The position numbers and the translations under genes were made by a program. 64,000 nt of DNA from Bacteroidota bacterium (GTDB taxonomy: Bacteria; Bacteroidota; Bacteroidia; B-17B0; Aurantibacillaceae): contig JADBXZ010000014.1 of assembly GCA_020403265.1 (NCBI GenBank), positions 186,001 to 250,000 of the forward strand. The letters run 5' to 3'. The notes under the pieces are model-generated. The model saw only the letters and a program-made list of their open reading frames with translations. It had not been told where the DNA came from and searched no databases. Positions within the stretch are counted from its first letter, which is position 1; every line of letters begins with the position of its first letter. Of this stretch, positions 5,457 through 60,126 are shown piece by piece.

Positions 5457-6524
5457 TTAATAAGAAGATTTTGTGTCAGAACGTCCAAGATTTTTACCAT
5501 AACCAGGAGATAAATTGTAACGTAACATCACTTCTAAACCACCAAATCTTCTGCTGGCAGGCGTTAAAGCCGATACGTTAATATCGTATGATAAACCTAA
5601 ACTATAATTATCATACTGGTATAAGGCTGACGGTATGATAGCATCTTTATAACGGTATTGTGCTCCAATTGCAAAAGCACTTGGTTTATTATTTTTAGTA
5701 AACGTTGACTGGTCATTTAAAATAAACTTAAATAATGCGCCACCAATAAACTCTCGCGATTTACCCTGAAGCATCACAAGTAACATTGGCATCACCGCAT
5801 TCTTAGAGTTAGGAATTGCTATATCAGCATTGGCATGAATATTTATGCGAGTATAAAGCTTTTCGCTAGTTTGGATAAACGAATTTTTTGGAATAGAAAA
5901 ATGATATAAACTAAAACCACCATTAAACTTATTACCATCACGCGAACTTATGAACCGATCACTTTTAGCATAGCTGTAATTTGCGCCCATCACAAAATCA
6001 TATCCGGTAATAGCACTCCTTGGGGTTGTATTCTCTCCATTTGAAAGATTTGGATTATAGCTTAATGATTCTTCATCAAACTGTGTGCCCCAACGTAAAT
6101 TATTTAAATCAATAGTTTTATAAATAAAGCCTCCTTGGAAACCAACGCCAATCTTAGAGTTTTTATTGATTTTAACGTGCTGAGAAATACCAATATTTGG
6201 ATTTAATTTTCTGAGTTTAGCATCCCCTGCCTGATCTCTGAATATATTTATAAAAACAGTAGGATAGTTTCCTTTAAGTTTTTTAAACCCTATGGTTTGC
6301 TCGTAACTAAAACCAATGGTTTGATATGCTTGCGCTACACTTCCCCATTGCGATCTAAAATTACCCATCACACGTGTGTTGTATATAGAGCCGGCTAAAG
6401 CCGGATTAATATTAGTTTGAACCTCGGCATATTGCGAGAAGTGTATGTCCTGAGCTAAGCCAAATGCACTAATTAGTAAAGCGCTAATGGTTGCCGCAAC
6501 TTTATTTTTTGATAACTTTTTCAT
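5457..6524 (-). CDS. PorP/SprF family type IX secretion outer-membrane protein
   Basis: PorP/SprF proteins are outer-membrane beta barrels that pair with type B cargo of the type IX secretion system and help deliver or anchor it at the cell surface. The 355 residues start with a signal peptide (ending about residue 24, FGLAQ), then the family opening DIHFSQYAEVQTNINPALAG, followed by alternating beta-strand sequence with PorP-type phrases such as FRSQWGSV, YEQTIGF and IGISQHVKIN, and the end SALTPASRRFGGLEVMLRYNL. It begins only 6 bases after the 1201-residue type B cargo gene, so the pair forms one transcription unit. Multiple paralogues per genome are usual, so I give no gene symbol. Confidence 0.9.
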   Translation of the reverse strand: MKKLSKNKVAATISALLISAFGLAQDIHFSQYAEVQTNINPALAGSIYNTRVMGNFRSQWGSVAQAYQTIGFSYEQTIGFKKLKGNYPTVFINIFRDQAGDAKLRKLNPNIGISQHVKINKNSKIGVGFQGGFIYKTIDLNNLRWGTQFDEESLSYNPNLSNGENTTPRSAITGYDFVMGANYSYAKSDRFISSRDGNKFNGGFSLYHFSIPKNSFIQTSEKLYTRINIHANADIAIPNSKNAVMPMLLVMLQGKSREFIGGALFKFILNDQSTFTKNNKPSAFAIGAQYRYKDAIIPSALYQYDNYSLGLSYDINVSALTPASRRFGGLEVMLRYNLSPGYGKNLGRSDTKSSY

Positions 6525-6530
6525 TTTCTT

Positions 6531-9500
6531 TTATCTAACTAGTGTAATATTTCCTTTTGAACTATAGCCTTTACCATCGAATGTTTTTCCTTCGAGTCGA
6601 TAAACAAACACATCGGTATTCATTAACTGACCTTTATAGGTTCCATCCCATCCTATTTCTCTGTCTGTGGTTTCAAACACTTTTTCGCCCCAACGGTTAA
6701 ACACCATAAAGGTTAAGGTTTGTAAACAACGTCCTTTTACGTACAAAATATCATTAACGCCATCATTATTCGGAGAGAAAGCATTTGGCACATACATCTC
6801 CCCACAATCCGTTGAAACTTCGATCTGAACAGAGTCCTCAGAAGGACATCGAGTAGCGTTATATCCTCTCACAATTAGTAATAAACTTGTTAAAGGATTT
6901 TTAACCGTAAAACTATTTCCGGTTGCCGGCGGTGGAATGTAATAATTCAAGGCACGCCATTCATACCATTTGGCGCCACTGGCTGTGTAAGTCTTGGTTG
7001 AGGCAAACTTTAAGTAGTCCATACTCTTTAACTGACCTGGCGGCACAATTGTTGTATTTGGTATATCAACTACCTTGATGAGATTGGCTACTCCTCTGGT
7101 ATAACAACTTCCTACTCCGACAGGCCATGGATTACATACTTTTAACACCACATTAAACCCGGCTTGTCCCGGTGGTGGTGGCAAATTATAACAAACTGTT
7201 GGAAACTGTGCAGTTGATGTCGAAGGCGTACCGCCTGCAAAAGTCCATGTGTAACTTTGTGGACCACCAGCCAAAGTATCGGTAAAATTTAAAAAAGTAA
7301 TACAGTCTTGTCCGGCGCATAAAGTATCATTTGCATTCGCAACACTGAAAGACACTGCTGTCATGCTTCTGCAATCTACGGCAATTACAGAAACCGTATC
7401 AATACGCTTGCAGCCTGGAATGCCATTATAACCACTTTGAACAGTATATGTTTGGATACGAGGTAAACGCCTTGGTGCACTGGCAATAATAGTATGTGTT
7501 GGCGGAGAACCACCACCAATACCCGGATTTGGGCTTAAAATTGGTGAAGAACCTGTGCCATTAGCGTATGGTGCGGTCCAGGTAAAGGTTGGCACAACAC
7601 CTGGAGGTAGAGCCGGAATAACATTATTGTTTACGGCAGATAATACAATATTAACATTCGGATCTGAGAAGGTATTACCTACAAAACAAACTGTATTAGT
7701 TGGCAGTCCATTAATAGTTGGAATAGCAATGGCTGTGAGTGGCTGCGGAAGAACTGTTACCGTGACCAAGCGAGGGAAAGAAATACAACCAACACTTGGA
7801 AAATCAACCTGGTGATTATCTCGAACTTCTACGGTATAGGTTGTTGTATTTTGAGGGTAAATAGTTACACATTTTAACAAGTTGTTAGGCATACTTGGTG
7901 GTGGTGCGTTAGCAGCCTCGTTCCAATTATAGGTGAACCCAGATGGTGGTCCTAATGCAAGTGTTCCAACGGAGGAAACACATAAACCTAAACTATCCCC
8001 CAAACACATTACAGGCTGTGGTGGTGTAACACCAATTGTGAACTGAGGAATTACAGTAACACAAATAACAGCAGAACCTGAACACACTGCAGAATTTCCA
8101 ATAACAGTATAGCAGGTTGATGTGGTTGGCCTTACAATTGGCATTGGTGAGATGCTGTTTGAAATATTAAATGGCGGAAACCAAGCATAAGTTGATGCAC
8201 CTGAAGCTTTTAATGTATCCGGTGAAGAGAAAAAAGGAAAGTTACTAACGATACAAACCGTTGGATTAGATTGAGATACATTAATGGTTAAAGGCGCTAA
8301 CGTATTTATCGTGATAGCATTAAACGAATTACAACCGATGCCATTACTTCCAATAACGGTGTAAGTTCCTGGTCCTACTGAAATACTTGGTTGTAAAATC
8401 GAATTCGTGAATGTGCTGCCTGTCCATGTAAAATTAGGTGCACCTGTTGCAGTTAATGTTGACGTGAATCCTGTACAAACTGCGGTTGCAGAAACGGCAA
8501 CTGCAACGGGAGGGGCAGCACCCACACCAACGTTGATAGTTGTTGAACCTGTACATCCGCCGCTATTACCAATTACCGTATAAGTTGTAGGTATCGTTGG
8601 ACTTGCAACCACATTAGCACCAGAAGGAGAGCTTAAACTACCACTTGGTGTCCATGTATAATTTGTAGCACCATTTGCAGTCAAAGCTACAGTCTGGCCT
8701 GGACAAACACTTGTTGCACCCGCAGCTACACCAACAGTTAATGATCCTCCAGTGCTAACTGAGACAACAGCAGATCCTGTACAAGCACCTGATGTTCCAA
8801 ATACAGTATAAGTTGTATTAACGGTTGGATTAACAACAACTGAATTACCGGTACCAACTGTATTAGAAGGGGCTGTAACCCAGGTGTATGTGGTACCTCC
8901 TGAAGCGGTTAATGTTACTGCCGCACCCGGGCAAACTAAACTTGGATTAGCACCAGCTAAGATAGTAATACCCGCTCCAATTGTAACGTTGGCTTGAGTT
9001 GTAAATGAACATCCACCCAGTGTAATAGAAACGCCATAAACGCTATTAACCGCTGGAGCAACTGTTTGAGTTTGTGAAGTACCTAACAAGCCTGGTGCGG
9101 GTGAAACAGTTACCCATTGATAATTAGCACCTGGATTTCCGGCATCTAAAGTTGCCGTACCACCTGCACAAATAGTTTGGTTAGCAATAGCAACGCTTGG
9201 CGTAGCATTAACCGTAACATTTTGAACTGCACTGTATGTTGGAATAGCGCCAACAAAACCAACAACGATAACAGAATATGTCCCTGGGGCATTATAATTT
9301 ATCGTAGCAGTAGTACCTAACGCTGTTGTATTAGAAATTACAGCTGTGCCAGGCACTGTGGACCAAGTAAAAGCAGTGGTGCCGGCAGTAGTGCCTGTTA
9401 AGGTAGCCGTTACCGTTTGATTGGTACAAGCAGTTGCGGTTGTAGTTACAGTTAATTGTGCGGCAGCACTTAGTTGGATATCATCAATAGCTACAGACGG

Positions 9501-10136
9501 ATCTGTTCCTGCTGCTGCCGTATTTTGCCATCTATACCCAATTTTTACAGTTGGATTGTTGTTACACGCCGCAGGCAAAGGGAAACTAGATGTTGTCCAA
9601 GTACCCTGAGGTAAACAACCAACTGTTGAAGACGCCAAAACACCAAGAACATTCCATATTGCACCATTATTAGAAGAAAACAAAACTTCGCAGAAATGCT
9701 GGCCCGGAGCACCGTTGGCTAAATACTTAAAATTTAAAGTGATTCCATTTTGGCCTGTGCAGTTGATGGTAGGTGATTCAGCCCTTTTATTAGTGTTAGA
9801 GGTTGGAGAAATCAAAAATGCTGCACCCGGATCTACAAATATTGGTGCAAGGTTAGAACCAATATGAAGTGTCCGGTTTGTTCCGCAACCGGTTCCGCAA
9901 GCACCAACAGCATTACCATTCTCTGTAGCGCTTACAAACCATTCATTAGCTTGAGCACCATTGGAAGGGGCGGCCGGCAAAGCAACAACCGTCCAAACTC
10001 CATTTGTTGGTGTGAAGGCAGCAGCAGTCGCCAACTGAGCTTGATTACAACCAGTACCAAATGTTTCGGACCAAAACTGCCCATAAGATTGAAAATAAAA
10101 TGAAACGGCAATAAAAACCGATAGTAGTTTCTTCAT
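6531..10136 (-). CDS. Giant T9SS type B cargo protein (gliding-associated C-terminal domain)
   Basis: This 1201-residue secreted protein has a signal peptide (MKKLLSVFIAVSFYFQSYGQ), an N-terminal jelly-roll-like domain (about 21-225; GITLNFKYLANG and VAIDDIQLS), then about eight Ig/PKD-like repeats of 75-90 residues with phrases such as TVCIVSN and TYTVIGNSG. The last 90 residues match the type B sorting domain: MYVPNAFSPNNDGVNDILYV, FMVFNRWGEKVFET, GWDGTYKG and a final SSKGNITLVR. It is exported by Sec and then by the T9SS and is probably a surface adhesin. Its PorP/SprF partner is 6 bases downstream. The exact ligand cannot be read from the sequence. Confidence 0.9.
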   Translation of the reverse strand: MKKLLSVFIAVSFYFQSYGQFWSETFGTGCNQAQLATAAAFTPTNGVWTVVALPAAPSNGAQANEWFVSATENGNAVGACGTGCGTNRTLHIGSNLAPIFVDPGAAFLISPTSNTNKRAESPTINCTGQNGITLNFKYLANGAPGQHFCEVLFSSNNGAIWNVLGVLASSTVGCLPQGTWTTSSFPLPAACNNNPTVKIGYRWQNTAAAGTDPSVAIDDIQLSAAAQLTVTTTATACTNQTVTATLTGTTAGTTAFTWSTVPGTAVISNTTALGTTATINYNAPGTYSVIVVGFVGAIPTYSAVQNVTVNATPSVAIANQTICAGGTATLDAGNPGANYQWVTVSPAPGLLGTSQTQTVAPAVNSVYGVSITLGGCSFTTQANVTIGAGITILAGANPSLVCPGAAVTLTASGGTTYTWVTAPSNTVGTGNSVVVNPTVNTTYTVFGTSGACTGSAVVSVSTGGSLTVGVAAGATSVCPGQTVALTANGATNYTWTPSGSLSSPSGANVVASPTIPTTYTVIGNSGGCTGSTTINVGVGAAPPVAVAVSATAVCTGFTSTLTATGAPNFTWTGSTFTNSILQPSISVGPGTYTVIGSNGIGCNSFNAITINTLAPLTINVSQSNPTVCIVSNFPFFSSPDTLKASGASTYAWFPPFNISNSISPMPIVRPTTSTCYTVIGNSAVCSGSAVICVTVIPQFTIGVTPPQPVMCLGDSLGLCVSSVGTLALGPPSGFTYNWNEAANAPPPSMPNNLLKCVTIYPQNTTTYTVEVRDNHQVDFPSVGCISFPRLVTVTVLPQPLTAIAIPTINGLPTNTVCFVGNTFSDPNVNIVLSAVNNNVIPALPPGVVPTFTWTAPYANGTGSSPILSPNPGIGGGSPPTHTIIASAPRRLPRIQTYTVQSGYNGIPGCKRIDTVSVIAVDCRSMTAVSFSVANANDTLCAGQDCITFLNFTDTLAGGPQSYTWTFAGGTPSTSTAQFPTVCYNLPPPPGQAGFNVVLKVCNPWPVGVGSCYTRGVANLIKVVDIPNTTIVPPGQLKSMDYLKFASTKTYTASGAKWYEWRALNYYIPPPATGNSFTVKNPLTSLLLIVRGYNATRCPSEDSVQIEVSTDCGEMYVPNAFSPNNDGVNDILYVKGRCLQTLTFMVFNRWGEKVFETTDREIGWDGTYKGQLMNTDVFVYRLEGKTFDGKGYSSKGNITLVR

Positions 10137-10256
10137 ATTGAGAAAATTAATTTAGCTAAGATACAACAAATTATTAACATATTTACTACAATTTACTCAT
10201 TAAACCTCAATATTTAATAAAAATGTATTGTTAATTTCGTAGACAGAAAATCTATT

Positions 10257-54241: not shown

Positions 54242-55096
54242 TTAATTTTTAGGAATTATAATTGTATCATAAAACGGCGCGTATCCAACAAACGCACCAA
54301 ATACCTCTCTAACATTATCAAATGTGCCTTGAACATTGGCCGGTGCGCTAAAGGGGTTGCCGTTACTAGATTTGTTTTGATAATAGGTATTCCAAAACTC
54401 GTATTCTTTTTTGCCTATCTTGCAAAACTTCACAATAATCGTGTCTCCTTTTCGATAATATCCACGCTCAGGATCCTCTCTAAATTCTTGCACTAAATTT
54501 GGTTGAGGACCTCTATCATATGCAAAATCAAATTTTTTACCATCTACAAACTTATCATCAAAAACCGAGTTAAATGGGGCAGCAAAAAACTGATCTCTAC
54601 CATAACGTTTGGCAAACCAACGATAGGCATCTCCGCTACCTGCGGGCTCGTTAAATTTCTGCCATATAAACCCCAGGTTATCTTTCTCAGCTTTAAACCA
54701 TAAGCTATCCAACTTTGGTGGAGATAAAATAGTTGTTGAACTACTATACTCCTTTCCATTATACCTTATTTTTAAAGTATAAGTTTTGCCTTGCTCGCCA
54801 TTAATTTTCAGGCCGGTATATAAATAACCTAAATCGGGATCTAATTCTTTTAAGGTGTCTACTAACGTACCGTTAGTTACAGTTACAAAAGCACCTTTAA
54901 TAAAAGCCTCCTGCGGTTTACTAAAATCAAACGTGCCAAAATAGGGAACTGATTTTGATAAAAATACAATTGCAGGTTGACCGGTTTCAATACTTGCTTC
55001 AACCACTAGTTTTTCTTCATAATCAGGCAGTTTAACTACCACGTCTTTACGGCAAGAAGCTAAAAATAAAAAGATAAATATATAACAATATTTCAT
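54242..55096 (-). CDS. DUF4249 family lipoprotein
   Basis: The 284 residues have a lipoprotein signal (FIFLFLASC, C15) and the DUF4249 pattern: KLPDYEEKLVVEASIETGQP, then GAFVTVTNG, the Ig-like GKTYTLKIRYNGKEYSSSTT and LDSLWF, and the late block EYEFWNTYYQNKSSNGNPFS followed by the PANVQGTFDNVREVFGAF pattern. These periplasmic or surface lipoproteins usually pair with a TonB receptor of the carboxypeptidase-regulatory type. Here the expected receptor (57682-60126) is on the same strand but 2.6 kb upstream, separated by the XRE/fulvocin-like module. The gene starts 3 bases after the XRE regulator stop and may now be read from that promoter. Confidence 0.85.
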   Translation of the reverse strand: MKYCYIFIFLFLASCRKDVVVKLPDYEEKLVVEASIETGQPAIVFLSKSVPYFGTFDFSKPQEAFIKGAFVTVTNGTLVDTLKELDPDLGYLYTGLKINGEQGKTYTLKIRYNGKEYSSSTTILSPPKLDSLWFKAEKDNLGFIWQKFNEPAGSGDAYRWFAKRYGRDQFFAAPFNSVFDDKFVDGKKFDFAYDRGPQPNLVQEFREDPERGYYRKGDTIIVKFCKIGKKEYEFWNTYYQNKSSNGNPFSAPANVQGTFDNVREVFGAFVGYAPFYDTIIIPKN

Positions 55097-55099
55097 CAG

Positions 55100-55441
55100 T
55101 TAAATTTTTGTTTTTAGTAGCTGCTGTCTCAAAAAATCAATTTCCTCTTTTAATGAATTAATATGTTCTTTATCTGCATTAATAACGACATCTACATAAG
55201 CATTAGGACTTTCACTGTTTTGCTGATTGATAATTTTAGCGGCTTTTTCATTAATTAACTCGCTTACTGTTGTATCTAATATTTTAGAAATTTGAATTAA
55301 TCTAGTAATAGTTATTCTATTATCCTCCTTTTCTAGTCTGGCATATGATGGCTGCGTAATACCTAGTTCGGAAGACATATTTTCTTGAGAAAAGCCTCTT
55401 AATTCTCTCATTTGTTTTATTTTTAATCCAATACTATTCAT
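55100..55441 (-). CDS. XRE family transcriptional regulator
   Basis: The 113 residues have an HTH_3 (Cro/C1-type) DNA-binding domain at about 6-62 (KQMRELRGFSQENMSSELGI, then TQPSYARLEKED), followed by a short tail predicted to form a coiled coil (about 90-110, INSLKEEIDFLRQQLL), suited to dimerisation. It is divergent from the cysteine-rich lipoprotein gene with 111 bases between them, which contain a perfect inverted repeat over a promoter, so it probably controls that gene and itself. It ends 3 bases before the DUF4249 gene. Confidence 0.9.
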   Translation of the reverse strand: MNSIGLKIKQMRELRGFSQENMSSELGITQPSYARLEKEDNRITITRLIQISKILDTTVSELINEKAAKIINQQNSESPNAYVDVVINADKEHINSLKEEIDFLRQQLLKTKI

Positions 55442-55501
55442 ATATTTTATAATTATTTCCTCAAAATTAATAAATTAATTATAATTTGAATAAAAATTTA
55501 G

Positions 55502-55528
55502 ATTTATACAATATACCTTTGTATAAAT
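55502..55528 (+). promoter_or_regulatory. Inverted repeat over the promoter of the cysteine-rich lipoprotein gene (candidate XRE operator)
   Basis: ATTTATACAA (55502-55511) and TTGTATAAAT (55519-55528) form a perfect 10-bp inverted repeat with a 7-base spacer. The -7 element TACCTTTG (55514-55521) lies inside it, 32 bases before the ATG at 55553. A dimeric XRE protein bound here would block RNA polymerase. No TTG -33 element is seen at the usual distance. Confidence 0.6.
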
Positions 55529-55552
55529 TTAATCATACTTAATAACCAAATT

Positions 55553-56305
55553 ATGAAAAAAACAATTAAAACTTTTGGAATTTTAGCTTTAGCTTCTTTG
55601 CTTGTAATCAGTTGTAAAAAAGCTAAAGTTAATACACCTGTTAGCAATGAAATCAAAAATGATAAATATGATTTCAGAAAAGATGATAAACTATTAGCTT
55701 TTAAGGATATTAATATTTCTAATCATACTCAACGAAAATATGAAAATGTTGATATGGCAATGATTGAAGCAATTTACGAATTAACTCCTTCAACAAATAG
55801 GAACGCAGCATTCTCTTTGTTAAGTAACTTTGAAAAATACGCATACTGGGACAATCTTATAACTCGTAAAATTGAATCATCTAGCTTAACATCACAACAA
55901 AAGAGTTTACTTGTTGACTTCAAAAACTTAATAATTATTCCACAAATTTACACTAATTCAGATGAGGGAAATGACTTGAGAACCGGTTTGGAAAATAGCC
56001 TATCGGATATATTCATACAATTTATTGATGAAGGGATTGACACAACGTCAGTTCTTAATATTTTTTATGCTAATGGACTAAATAACTTAACATTTACCGA
56101 TCACCAAGTTGGTGGTGTTGATTGGGGCCATGACTGTGGATGCAATAGAGGATCTGTAGTAAATGGTTGGAAAAACAGGCTTTGTGTTGATGCAGCGTGT
56201 AATGTTTCTAGTTTTGGTTGTGGGTTTGTAGGAGCATTTATGTGTAATGGACGTCCAGCAATTGCAACATCAGGTGGAGGCGTTCAATTTTTAGATATGC
56301 CTTAA
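55553..56305 (+). CDS. Lipoprotein with six-cysteine C-terminal domain (fulvocin C-related bacteriocin-like)
   Basis: The 250 residues have a lipoprotein signal (LLVISC, C21), a helical middle region with RNAAFSLLSNFEKYAYWDNL and LTSQQKSLLVDFKNLI (about 83-128), and a cysteine-rich end with C195, C197, C211, C216, C223 and C231 (HDCGCN, then CVDAAC, FGCGF and CNG). This arrangement resembles Bacteroidota proteins annotated as fulvocin C-related, named after the disulfide-rich bacteriocin of Myxococcus fulvus. Whether the tail is a released toxin or a fixed domain cannot be told. The next gene encodes a thioredoxin-like protein that could form the three possible disulfides. A strong terminator follows. 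Confidence 0.65.
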   Translation: MKKTIKTFGILALASLLVISCKKAKVNTPVSNEIKNDKYDFRKDDKLLAFKDINISNHTQRKYENVDMAMIEAIYELTPSTNRNAAFSLLSNFEKYAYWDNLITRKIESSSLTSQQKSLLVDFKNLIIIPQIYTNSDEGNDLRTGLENSLSDIFIQFIDEGIDTTSVLNIFYANGLNNLTFTDHQVGGVDWGHDCGCNRGSVVNGWKNRLCVDAACNVSSFGCGFVGAFMCNGRPAIATSGGGVQFLDMP

Positions 56306-56316
56306 AAAGGCATTTT

Positions 56317-56356
56317 AAAAAATGCTAATTGCATTGAATTGCAATTAGCATTTTTT
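56317..56356 (+). terminator. Strong terminator between the cysteine-rich gene and the thioredoxin-like gene
   Basis: A 17-bp perfect stem (56317-56333 with 56340-56356, core ATGCTAATTGCA) closes a 6-base loop and ends in a T run. It starts 12 bases past the stop at 56305 and ends 11 bases before the ATG at 56367. The downstream genes are therefore expressed by read-through or from a separate start; TATTTTTG at 56356-56363 is too close to the ATG to be a normal promoter. Confidence 0.9.
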
Positions 56357-56366
56357 ATTTTTGCAT

Positions 56367-57284
56367 ATGACCAAAATAATAGAAATATTAAAATTCATAC
56401 TTTGGAGTATCTTTATTTTTATTCTACAAATTTTAGTTTGGATAATTTTCGAGAGTTTTGATTATAATGAAAAAGAACTTTATATTTTTTACCTAAGTTG
56501 TAATTTTTTTGTTTTTTACCTATTATTTTCTGTTATTTCATTAAAATTAAAAGTAAGGAAAATATATGAGATTCTTCTATTGTCATGTGCGCAACTAGCA
56601 ATGAGCACATTTATAATTTTAAGTCCAGAAACTTTAAAGATGAGGAGTTTAGATTTAATGTTTTATTCGATATTTCTATTTCTACAGCCATTACTTTTTA
56701 AATATAATAACAGTATAAAACTAATTACGAATTTAACTTTAGGTATAATCCTTTCACTAACTTCATTATTCGCGTACAAGTATATTAGTAGCTACATTTT
56801 ATCATCATTTTTTAGTGAAAAGACAAATCGTGAAATAACTTCAACTAAACAAGAATTTTACTTTATTGATAAAGATAGCGCAAATACAACATTTCCTTTT
56901 TTGAAGAAAAACAAAATTTATTTTATAGAATTTTGGAACAAAAGTTGTGGAATTTGTGTAAAAAATTTACCAGAGATTAAAAGGCTACAGTCCACTTATA
57001 AAAATGATACGGTAGTAGAAATTATAAGTTTATATTGTCCAATTAATCAAAATGAAACTAGAGATTGGTTTTACAATATTTTTTTGACAAATAATATTAA
57101 ATTACCTGATATTAAATACTCTTATACCAGTATTGGAATGAATCTAAAATACAAGATTACAACATTCCCACATTTCTTTCTAATTGACAAGGAAGGTAAT
57201 GGTATTGAAGGATCGCAAGTTTATTTCGATAAGAGTTTACCTAATAATATTTATGATAAAATTGAAGATCTTAAAAAAAAGTAG
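56367..57284 (+). CDS. Membrane-anchored thioredoxin-like disulfide protein
   Basis: An open frame exists from the TTG at 56361, but the ATG at 56367 is preferred. The 305 residues have four or five membrane segments in the first 145 (such as FILWSIFIFILQILVWIIF) and a thioredoxin-fold domain at about 160-305 with FWNKSCGICVKNLPEIKRL (active-site CGIC, 194-197) and the cis-proline loop TTFPHFFLID (P268). Two more cysteines (C45, C74) lie in the membrane part and could relay electrons. A TlpA/DsbD-like role in disulfide exchange is inferred, likely for the six-cysteine protein before it. The DUF1573 gene overlaps its last 32 bases. Confidence 0.75.
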   Translation: MTKIIEILKFILWSIFIFILQILVWIIFESFDYNEKELYIFYLSCNFFVFYLLFSVISLKLKVRKIYEILLLSCAQLAMSTFIILSPETLKMRSLDLMFYSIFLFLQPLLFKYNNSIKLITNLTLGIILSLTSLFAYKYISSYILSSFFSEKTNREITSTKQEFYFIDKDSANTTFPFLKKNKIYFIEFWNKSCGICVKNLPEIKRLQSTYKNDTVVEIISLYCPINQNETRDWFYNIFLTNNIKLPDIKYSYTSIGMNLKYKITTFPHFFLIDKEGNGIEGSQVYFDKSLPNNIYDKIEDLKKK

Positions 57285-57663
57285 CTTGATAATCTGTTTA
57301 GCAATTATCGCACTTAGATGTAATGAAAATAAAAAGATTGAAAGAAAAGTCGCAATATTACAAACAGAAGATTTAGTTTTTAATGTTGGCCATATATTAA
57401 AGGATAGTACTTATAAATTTAATTTTTATGTAAAATCAGTCGGTGATAATCCATTAATAGTTGATTCTGTAAGCAAAAACTGTGAGTGCACTAATGTGAA
57501 ATTTTCTCATAAACCAATAAATAAGGGAGATTCAGCTAAATTTGAAGTAACTTTTAAAGCAAATAAGTCAGACTCTGGAAAATTTACATCTAGCTTTGTG
57601 ATAAAGGCTAATGTTAAAAATTACTTTGTGCCAGTTTATTTTACAGGCACCTTAATAGATTAG
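57253..57663 (+). CDS. DUF1573 domain protein
   Basis: A longer frame opens at 57184, but the ATG at 57253 gives MIKLKILKKSSLIICLAIIA with a hydrophobic signal and C23 as a possible lipid site (ALRC is an imperfect lipobox). The 136 residues show the DUF1573 pattern: VFNVGHILKDSTYKFNFYVK, then SVSKNCECTNVKFS with the paired cysteines (C77, C79), and KGDSAKFEVTFKANKSDSGK. DUF1573 is an Ig-like domain of unknown function often found near redox and peptide-modification genes. The gene overlaps the thioredoxin-like gene by 32 bases, so the two are probably translated together. Confidence 0.8.
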   Translation: MIKLKILKKSSLIICLAIIALRCNENKKIERKVAILQTEDLVFNVGHILKDSTYKFNFYVKSVGDNPLIVDSVSKNCECTNVKFSHKPINKGDSAKFEVTFKANKSDSGKFTSSFVIKANVKNYFVPVYFTGTLID

Positions 57664-57681
57664 AACTAAAAGATAAATTGT

Positions 57682-60126
57682 CTAAAACTTAAAATTCCAG
57701 GTAAAACTAGGTAAAATTGGGAAAAGCGTAACTTGCCTGGCACCAACTTTTAAAGTGCCGTTTGCAAAATCACCACTTTTGGTTAAATAAATAAAATAAG
57801 GATTATAACGGTTATAGACGTTAAAAACACTTAAGGTAAAGCTATTCGAAAAATGCTTTAACCAAGGTTTGGTAATTTGAATTGAAGTTGTGTCTTTTTG
57901 CTGCAACGTATATTTTTGAATCAAGGCCTGCTTTTTTCTTTCTAACCTTTTAGATCTATTAGGCGTATAGGTAACATTTAAATCCATACGGTGGTAATCT
58001 GCAAACTTATAAGAATTTCTTAAGCCGTAATCACTGCTTAAACTACCCTCATATAAGAAGAAACCATTCGGCAAAGTGCCTCTATTTCCGGTTCCATACA
58101 CCCATACCAATCCAAAATTCCATTGATTAGTGGCATCATAATTAACAACTAATGAGGCATCATGTCTACGGTCGTATTTTGCTAAAAAAGGCAACCCGTA
58201 ATTGATGTTATCAAATTGCCGCCAAGCCCAACTTAAGGTGTATCCAATCCAGCCTGTTAATTTGCCGCTTCTCTTTTTAGCAAAAACCTCAACACCATAG
58301 GCCCAACCTCTACCAAATGTAAAACCATTATCAGGATTATCAAATACGTTATCGGATGGTTGTGCGCCTTCCTTAAATTCGATCTGGCGATCCATTGTTT
58401 TATAATAAACTTCGGCACTGGTTTCGTACAAATTATCTTTTAAATTTTTAAAAAAACCAAGTGCATATTGATTGGCGATTTGCGGTTTTATGACCTCTGT
58501 GCAAGGCATCCAAACATCCGTTGGCAAACTCACTGAAGAAAACGATGCCAAGTGTACATACTGGAAATTGCGGGTAAAGGAAGCTTTTATGGAACTACTA
58601 GGATTTAATTGAACTCGGGCCGCTAACCTAGGCTCTAAACCATTATAAGTGCTAACAATTTGGTTTGCCTTGTAGGTAACCGTATCTACAATTTTACCTG
58701 TTACATCTTTTAGGTATCGATTAAATGGTCCCACATGTGTGAAGTTACCTAATCGTAATCCTGAATTCAGTTTTAACCACTGATTAATGTCCCAATCATC
58801 GCTAACATAAACAGCTGTTTCGTGTGAAAGTAGTTTTATAACTTTACCTAAATCAAATACCGTTTCGCCTTGTTTTGCACTAACACTTGTTGGCACAAAT
58901 TGATGAAATGTGTAATGAATGCCTGTTTTAATTGTGTGCCTTGAATTTGGAAAATAATTCACATCATACTTAAACCCATAATCAGTAATGCCGGATTTTA
59001 TGGTTGCTTCAAAATCTTGCTGAAGCGCCATAAATGAAAAATTATAATTCGTAAAAATGAGTGAAAGATTAGAAAATAATTTTGAATTAAAAATATGGTT
59101 CCACCTGGCGCAGGCAGAAGCATTGCCCCATGGAATTTTTGTATTAAAACCTTCTTCGTTATCTTTAAACTCAAATCGATCTCTTCCAAAATAACCACTT
59201 AAAAACAATCTGTTTTTATCATTAACGGTATAATTAACTTTTCCGTTTAAATCATAAAAATAATAAGAGGTGCCTTTAAAATCGCTTTTCTCAATAAATG
59301 GTTTTGCCAAAACATCCACATAGGTTCTTCTGGCACTAATTAAAAAAGAAGCTTTATTTTTTATAATTGGGCCTTGAATGGTTAATCTGGAGGCTATTAA
59401 ACCTATGCCGCCATCCACTTCAAATTTTTGGTTGTTGCCATCCTTGGTTGAAATATCGAGTACCGATGACAACCTGCCTCCATATTGCGCAGGCATACCA
59501 CCTTTGATAAGGTTAACATTTTTAATTGCATCGCCATTAAATACACTAAAAAAACCCATCAAATGCGAAGCATTATAAATAGGAGCCTCATCCAATAAAA
59601 TTAAATTCTGATCAGGGCCACCACCCCTGACATAAAAACCTGTGTTACCATCACCTGCATTTTTCACGCCCGGTAACAATTGAATGGTTTTTAACACGTC
59701 AACTTCTCCCATGAATGCAGGAATTTTTTTAATTTCAGCCATATCCAACTGAACACTGCTCATTTGCGAATTTTTAATATTCTCATTTGTGCCGGTTGTA
59801 CTTACCTCTACTTCGGCCAAATTAGTTTGTAAAGAACTAAGTGAGAAATTGAGAACTTGCGTACTAGTTAACCGAAGCACATGACTTTGCAGCTTATAGG
59901 CGGAATAACTCACAACAAGCGTGTAAGTGCCCATAGGCGCTGTTAACGAGTAAAAACCATATTGGTTAGTTGTTGCGATTATTTTAGTAGGCAGTAGCTG
60001 AATGGCGGCTCCAATTAAAGTTTCGCCATTTTCCTCATCGGTTATTGTTCCACTTACACTAAAATTTTGAGCTTTACAAAACGTAATAATTAAAAGTGGA
60101 ATAAGTATTTTTCCTAAAACTTTCAA
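57682..60126 (-). CDS. TonB-dependent receptor with carboxypeptidase-regulatory domain
   Basis: The 814-residue outer-membrane receptor has a signal peptide (1-19, LIITFCKAQ), a carboxypeptidase-regulatory-like domain (about 20-105, VSGTITDEENGETLIGAAIQ), a plug domain (about 120-230, LKTIQLLPGVKNAGDGNTGF, then YVRGGGPDQNLILLDEAPIY and GGMPAQYGGRLSSVLDI), and a 22-stranded barrel ending LPSFTWNFKF. This subtype typically takes up a siderophore-like or other unknown ligand with a DUF4249 partner. It is the last gene of a minus-strand operon, 19 bases after the permease gene. Its expected DUF4249 gene lies beyond the inserted module. Confidence 0.93.
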   Translation of the reverse strand: MKVLGKILIPLLIITFCKAQNFSVSGTITDEENGETLIGAAIQLLPTKIIATTNQYGFYSLTAPMGTYTLVVSYSAYKLQSHVLRLTSTQVLNFSLSSLQTNLAEVEVSTTGTNENIKNSQMSSVQLDMAEIKKIPAFMGEVDVLKTIQLLPGVKNAGDGNTGFYVRGGGPDQNLILLDEAPIYNASHLMGFFSVFNGDAIKNVNLIKGGMPAQYGGRLSSVLDISTKDGNNQKFEVDGGIGLIASRLTIQGPIIKNKASFLISARRTYVDVLAKPFIEKSDFKGTSYYFYDLNGKVNYTVNDKNRLFLSGYFGRDRFEFKDNEEGFNTKIPWGNASACARWNHIFNSKLFSNLSLIFTNYNFSFMALQQDFEATIKSGITDYGFKYDVNYFPNSRHTIKTGIHYTFHQFVPTSVSAKQGETVFDLGKVIKLLSHETAVYVSDDWDINQWLKLNSGLRLGNFTHVGPFNRYLKDVTGKIVDTVTYKANQIVSTYNGLEPRLAARVQLNPSSSIKASFTRNFQYVHLASFSSVSLPTDVWMPCTEVIKPQIANQYALGFFKNLKDNLYETSAEVYYKTMDRQIEFKEGAQPSDNVFDNPDNGFTFGRGWAYGVEVFAKKRSGKLTGWIGYTLSWAWRQFDNINYGLPFLAKYDRRHDASLVVNYDATNQWNFGLVWVYGTGNRGTLPNGFFLYEGSLSSDYGLRNSYKFADYHRMDLNVTYTPNRSKRLERKKQALIQKYTLQQKDTTSIQITKPWLKHFSNSFTLSVFNVYNRYNPYFIYLTKSGDFANGTLKVGARQVTLFPILPSFTWNFKF

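Follow-up and report, generated by a model that had tools for sequence, protein, structure and literature searches.

The window analysed here, a stretch of 64,000 nucleotides of Bacteroidota DNA, carries a compact four-gene cassette at 55097-57681 (2585 nt, from the start codon of a DUF4249 gene to the stop codon of a TonB-receptor gene). All four genes were located where the first-pass annotation had placed them, within about 2.6 kb. A divergent gene (55100-55441, minus strand) encodes an XRE/Cro-type helix-turn-helix regulator of 113 residues (HTH_3, 47 bits against a cut-off of 23). The plus strand carries genes for a fulvocin C-related lipoprotein precursor of 250 residues (55553-56305), a membrane-anchored TlpA/ResA-like thioredoxin (56367-57284) and a DUF1573 lipoprotein of 136 residues (57253-57663). 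For the DUF1573 gene the ATG at 57253 is the most likely start, not the mechanical TTG at 57184; from this ATG it overlaps the thioredoxin gene by 32 bases, in agreement with the overlap noticed before. Within the window cassette no protease, exporter or immunity gene was evident, and PADLOC gave no credible match apart from the generic HTH. The module had been described as AT-rich against its neighbours. This is the case for most of it (GC 0.23-0.28 compared with 0.33-0.42), but GC climbs to 0.34 in the 3' part of the lipoprotein gene.

The cassette lies between a DUF4249 lipoprotein gene (54242-55096, minus strand) and a TonB-dependent receptor gene (57682-60126, minus strand). We compared this site with 24 same-genus genomes that contain the orthologous flanking pair (DUF4249 identity about 60-69%). 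There, receptor and DUF4249 genes abut, with -4 to +9 nt, once 98 nt, from receptor stop to DUF4249 start, against 2585 nt in the window. Therefore, a single clean insertion most likely brought in all four genes. No integrase or tRNA marks the insertion at the window cassette, and no convincing target-site duplication was found. The insertion (window 54242-60126) splits a TonB-receptor/DUF4249 operon that is conserved genus-wide. The DUF4249 start now lies three bases past the XRE stop, so that DUF4249 expression may follow the XRE gene. A second, diverged copy of the cassette (L011), again with all four kinds of gene, is located on another contig of this genome. Its fulvocin-related protein is 46% identical to that of the window, and its XRE counterpart lies at L011 8827-9174. 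At the corresponding site, 29 same-genus yqgE loci are without a cassette, and synteny is too broken to set its edges.

The fulvocin-related family is rare and patchy, being present in 9 of 395 genomes of the class and in 3 of 87 genomes of the taxonomic family. A search of 84,980 species genomes found no relatives with the 250-residue lipoprotein and only three with a four-member alignment, as the family escapes searches by short exact patterns. No relatives were found on viral contigs, in phages or, with the 250-residue lipoprotein as query, on plasmids; thus there is no sign of phage carriage of the cassette. Some candidates were dropped as family members, G415, G454 and G456 as lipobox-only matches and L061 and L062 as N-domain-only matches.

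Upstream of the precursor gene lies a candidate operator/promoter (55502-55528, unstranded), a perfect 10-bp inverted repeat of the form ATTTATACAA-n7-TTGTATAAAT. It is overlapped by a Bacteroidota-type -7 box, TACCTTTG, at 55514-55521. In both the window and the L011 cassette a TAnnTTTG box is positioned 38-39 nt ahead of the ATG. An operator common to both cassettes was ruled out, as the palindromes differ and L011 does not contain the 10-bp repeat of the window. Divergent XRE genes are clear in the window, L011 and L057 and borderline, below the cut-off, in L054. From this arrangement it is plausible that the XRE protein represses the cassette. Between the bacteriocin and thioredoxin genes of the window lies a strong hairpin with an 18-bp stem and a U-tract (56316-56357, plus strand), a candidate attenuator. 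At this position L011 and L054 have strong hairpins as well, unrelated to that of the window. A hairpin after the first gene would be compatible with lower expression of the helper genes.

The 250-residue product had been related to fulvocin C, and this was borne out by the NCBIfam profile NF033852 ('bacteriocin fulvocin C-related'), which it matches with 47.4 bits (cut-off 35) over profile positions 1-148 of 150. Both the lipobox and the six tail cysteines reported for it are present. Sequence and alignment place the lipobox at LVIS-C21, with the C21 codon at 55613-55615, and by this type II signal peptide with its lipobox cysteine the protein is a predicted lipoprotein. The fulvocin-like tail comprises residues 193-235 (56129-56257, plus strand) with C195, C197, C211, C216, C223 and C231. 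All six are invariant in 18 of 18 aligned homologues and thus are not there by chance. Two further tail cysteines, C3 ('DWC') and C8 ('GxC'), are both present in fifteen of the 18 and both missing in three, namely the window protein, L011 and L016, all of this genus. Judged from the alignment, eight tail cysteines are the ancestral state and six the derived one, C3 and C8 having been lost together in this genus clade. The simplest reading would be that C3-C8 formed one disulfide that was lost once, which counts as one event in a single clade. The tail is therefore conserved in the homologues as had been supposed, but its six cysteines are derived and the family has eight, like fulvocin C. Since the window tail keeps six and does not have the eight-cysteine fulvocin spacing, we refer to it as fulvocin-related and not as a fulvocin C. 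It also carries extra residues past the last cysteine.

Mature fulvocin C, a peptide of 45 residues with eight cysteines, was included in the comparisons. The sequence used for it matches NF033852 at positions 108-148 only (29.5 bits, E 1e-6) and is 44% identical to the L024 tail (E 6e-10). Thus, as a lead, the tail would be the counterpart of the mature bacteriocin over its full length, and the helical region ahead of it would be a pro-domain or anchor. In many family members a Gly-rich or Pro-containing linker lies directly ahead of the tail. The surface-anchored lipoprotein form proposed before fits the lipobox of most members, but it is not essential. The precursors of one family (L055-L057) have a plain signal peptide and no lipobox, L030 encodes a secreted peptide of 105 residues, a short fulvocin-like version again without lipobox, and the Streptomyces forms are fused to a different N-terminal region. 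The AlphaFold model of the window protein, built on an alignment of four sequences, has a mean pLDDT of 50 and of 24-36 in the tail, so that cysteine pairing is not readable from it. A fold search with this model returned nothing under E 0.5.

The membrane helices and the CGIC thioredoxin domain described for the next product were recovered. It scores 32.1 bits for Thioredoxin_8 (cut-off 27), and its predicted structure has five helices followed by the thioredoxin domain (about residues 174-305). In this model the thioredoxin domain is usable and the membrane part weak. The thioredoxin fold was recognized with Z 10.7, with ResA as the best among solved structures, and the five helices together with the positive-inside rule put the CxxC domain in the periplasm. 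The CxxC and the (cis-)proline are invariant in 8 of 8 partners, and nothing else is. Fold, CxxC and conserved proline identify the protein as a TlpA/ResA-like thiol-disulfide oxidoreductase. Because the active sites of the partners are mostly CGxC, as in ResA-like proteins, and not the oxidising CPHC, reduction or isomerisation of mispaired bonds would be favoured over de novo oxidation. In most close pairs, conservation is lower in the membrane part than in the thioredoxin domain (34% compared with 60% for window and L011). TIGR01295 (PedC/BrcD) does not match the window thioredoxin, and the best score, that of the L024 partner, is 17.8 bits against a cut-off of 120. The window thioredoxin is thus not a PedC member by its sequence, though it may act like PedC.

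The third product matches DUF1573 (PF07610) with 66.7 bits (gathering cut-off 26.1). Its CxC motif (C77 and C79, codons at 57481-57489) is invariant in the alignment of DUF1573 proteins and reads Cys-Glu-Cys in the window. The first-pass annotation held that no role of DUF1573 had been described. A lead does exist, as selenoprotein members of the family carry Sec-Gly-Cys, or UGC (PMC9312934). Since UGC replaces CxC in these relatives, the CxC is likely a redox site, and DUF1573 is probably a redox protein. The two motifs belong to the same Pfam family and the CxC would sit at the redox Sec-Gly-Cys position, an equivalence that we infer. In contrast to the selenoproteins, the window protein has no selenocysteine, contains Cys-Glu-Cys and is a lipoprotein.

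We also examined the genes around every family member detected in some 1,300 genomes and in plasmids. A gene for a transmembrane thioredoxin follows directly downstream on the same strand in 14 of 18 non-redundant intact loci of the phylum (the window, L011, L015, L024-L027, L029, L030, L054-L057 and L123). Only 9-15 Thioredoxin_8 genes are present per genome, and chance adjacency would therefore be well under 1% per locus. Among the four exceptions, L012 has DUF1573 directly downstream in place of the thioredoxin, in L013 an ABC transporter and two ResA-like genes lie on the divergent side, and L028 and L060 have neither helper adjacent. DUF1573 adjoins in five of the 18 loci, namely the window, L011, L015, L012 and a Bacteroides finegoldii plasmid. 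On this plasmid the order is DUF1573, fulvocin-related gene, TlpA; given this different arrangement, inherited synteny alone does not account for the association. Distances among the bacteriocins correlate with those among the thioredoxins (Mantel r 0.61, p 2e-4), a result to be expected from vertical co-inheritance by itself as well. Recurrence of both helper genes beside the family in distant genomes had been named as support and was observed. The outcomes named beforehand as refutations, a lack of conserved neighbours, or an unconserved tail and a protein of an unrelated lipoprotein family, did not occur.

An exchange of tails was observed on a plasmid of Streptomyces sp. NBC_00012, which carries two tandem fulvocin-related genes (L125 3434-4477 and 4783-5772). 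The products are identical over 269 of 269 residues (99.8% in DNA), then the tails differ (43% identity in protein, 52% in DNA), and the switch lies in the linker. The tails have been swapped here, a pattern that fits an exchangeable effector and is typical for polymorphic bacteriocins. The Streptomyces N-terminus contains a region with a CGTC motif and a Tat-like RKQFLRL segment, and is possibly a fused redox domain. A thioredoxin-like domain is indicated there by the motif only (DASCGTC...WVPTLL); Pfam finds none. In L030 the fulvocin tail stands behind a leader that resembles the leader of another gene, located downstream of the thioredoxin. This gene (L030 4793-5188; L057 4433-4867) encodes a secreted protein of 131-144 residues, whose leader matches that of the 105-residue peptide of L030; neither copy has a Pfam family. 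Broken copies were also seen, all in draft assemblies and some of them possibly errors: L058 shifts frame ahead of the tail but keeps its membrane gene whole, the membrane gene of L016 contains a stop, and L014 is interrupted.

On balance we lean towards a cassette that makes a fulvocin-type disulfide-rich bacteriocin from a membrane-tethered precursor, with dedicated thiol helpers and release by cleavage of the linker. The precursor would be exported by Sec and, in the window version, tethered as a lipoprotein. The membrane TlpA-like thioredoxin, joined by the CxC DUF1573 lipoprotein where present, would proofread or isomerise the tail disulfides, predicted to be three in the window protein and four in most relatives. 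Proteolysis in the linker just ahead of the first tail cysteine would free some 45 residues as a peptide resembling mature fulvocin C, to act on neighbouring related cells. The divergent XRE protein would keep the operon repressed, with more bacteriocin than helper made owing to the hairpin behind the first gene. The disulfide-bonded, bacteriocin-like product proposed before fits the conserved cysteines, the homology of the tail to fulvocin C and the Streptomyces tail swap, but the lipoprotein form proposed with it is not essential. Also in favour of this reading are the conserved helper genes, the loss of C3 and C8 as a pair, the short secreted form in L030, the mobile and accessory character of the cassette and the precedent of thiol oxidoreductases in other bacteriocin clusters. 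Counting against it are the cassette's lack of an evident protease, exporter or immunity gene, the four of 18 loci without a directly following thioredoxin and the CGIC site, which is ResA-like and not a DsbA-like CPHC. In addition, the window tail, with two cysteines fewer and extra end residues, may have changed function.

The whole protein might instead stay at the surface as a lipoprotein, its tail acting by contact as a toxin or recognition module and never being released. The lipobox of most members and a cassette without protease agree with this, and tail swapping suits contact-dependent toxins and recognition domains too. We consider it unlikely, however, given the members that do without a lipobox (L055-L057, L030), the linker ahead of the tail and the fact that mature fulvocin C is a free 45-residue peptide. 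That the product is not antibacterial at all appears less probable still; it would then sit in the envelope and serve in housekeeping or stress, its disulfide-stabilised domain being kept folded by the helpers. TlpA and DUF1573 proteins are indeed common in Bacteroidota outside bacteriocin loci (the thioredoxins were counted here), but the patchy distribution, the cassette insertion, the broken copies (L014, L016, L058) and the tail exchange fit accessory antagonism better.

The helpers might also serve immunity and not maturation, with either DUF1573 or the thioredoxin protein, through its variable membrane part, shielding the producer. The lower conservation of this membrane part, the intact membrane gene beside the broken bacteriocin frame of L058 and a cassette without another immunity candidate are in line with such a role. 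Immunity alone would not need the CxxC that is invariant in all partners, however, and DUF1573 is found in few of the loci, and we regard this as improbable.

Fulvocin C of Myxococcus fulvus was reportedly sequenced as a peptide by Tsai and Hirsch in 1981. Fulvocin C is cited in PMC8708641 (its reference 17). In the open-access literature we found no cassette, precursor or gene locus for it, and no description of the loci presented here. The window precursor shares the homologous cysteine tail and exceeds the NF033852 cut-off, but its tail has six cysteines, not eight, and residues past the last one. PedC raised the potency of pediocin (PMC4919988); sublancin and thermophilin are the subject of earlier studies that this paper cites. 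Clusters with oxidoreductases of the PedC/BrcD, BdbA/BdbB and BlpG type likewise have a bacteriocin gene and then a dedicated thioredoxin-fold CxxC protein (PMC4919988). Those clusters are Gram-positive, whereas the window helper, from Bacteroidota and joined by DUF1573, combines five membrane helices with a ResA-like domain. TmcD forms the disulfide of TMcin, and cysteine mutants lose activity (PMC13252029). TMcin clusters share with the scheme proposed here a membrane-tethered precursor, leader removal and disulfide formation by a cluster-encoded oxidoreductase (PMC13252029), but the window precursor is unrelated, TmcD is DsbA-like with CPHC, and TMcin clusters have a dedicated protease and exporter. 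We thus regard the product as a probable fulvocin-related bacteriocin, most likely disulfide-bonded, with dedicated thiol helpers and a compact cassette as its carrier.

The loci suggest an architecture for fulvocin C, a pro-domain with a C-terminal 45-residue tail. They name likely folding partners of fulvocin-type bacteriocins and tie DUF1573, a common unexplained family, to thiol chemistry. They also point to a source of Bacteroidota bacteriocins that bear the family name and whose partners were so far undescribed. More tentatively, a so far undescribed bacteriocin system, with a tail exchanged through recombination on a constant carrier, a compact travelling cassette and a dedicated folding pair of membrane TlpA-like thioredoxin and DUF1573 as disulfide isomerase, could be widespread across Bacteroidota and Streptomyces. 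If so, the isomerase reading (CxC; Sec-Gly-Cys in relatives) would be the first function for DUF1573.

Further genes were observed around the family. L013 3881-7605 contains an ABC exporter-like operon that runs divergently to the fulvocin-related gene and alternates with two ResA-like proteins. In L028, the one same-class locus without both helpers, the gene divergent to the fulvocin-related one encodes MsrA (methionine sulfoxide reductase; 7763-8425). In L030, the region upstream of the short peptide (6367-9696) encodes a DCC1-like thiol-disulfide oxidoreductase, which is a further thiol-redox link, and a multi-helix protein. Downstream of the Bacteroides plasmid trio (L123 6803-10148) gene types repeat, with proteins of 260 and 223 residues and nearly identical 90-residue membrane proteins at 8042-8314 and 9876-10148, possibly an immunity array.
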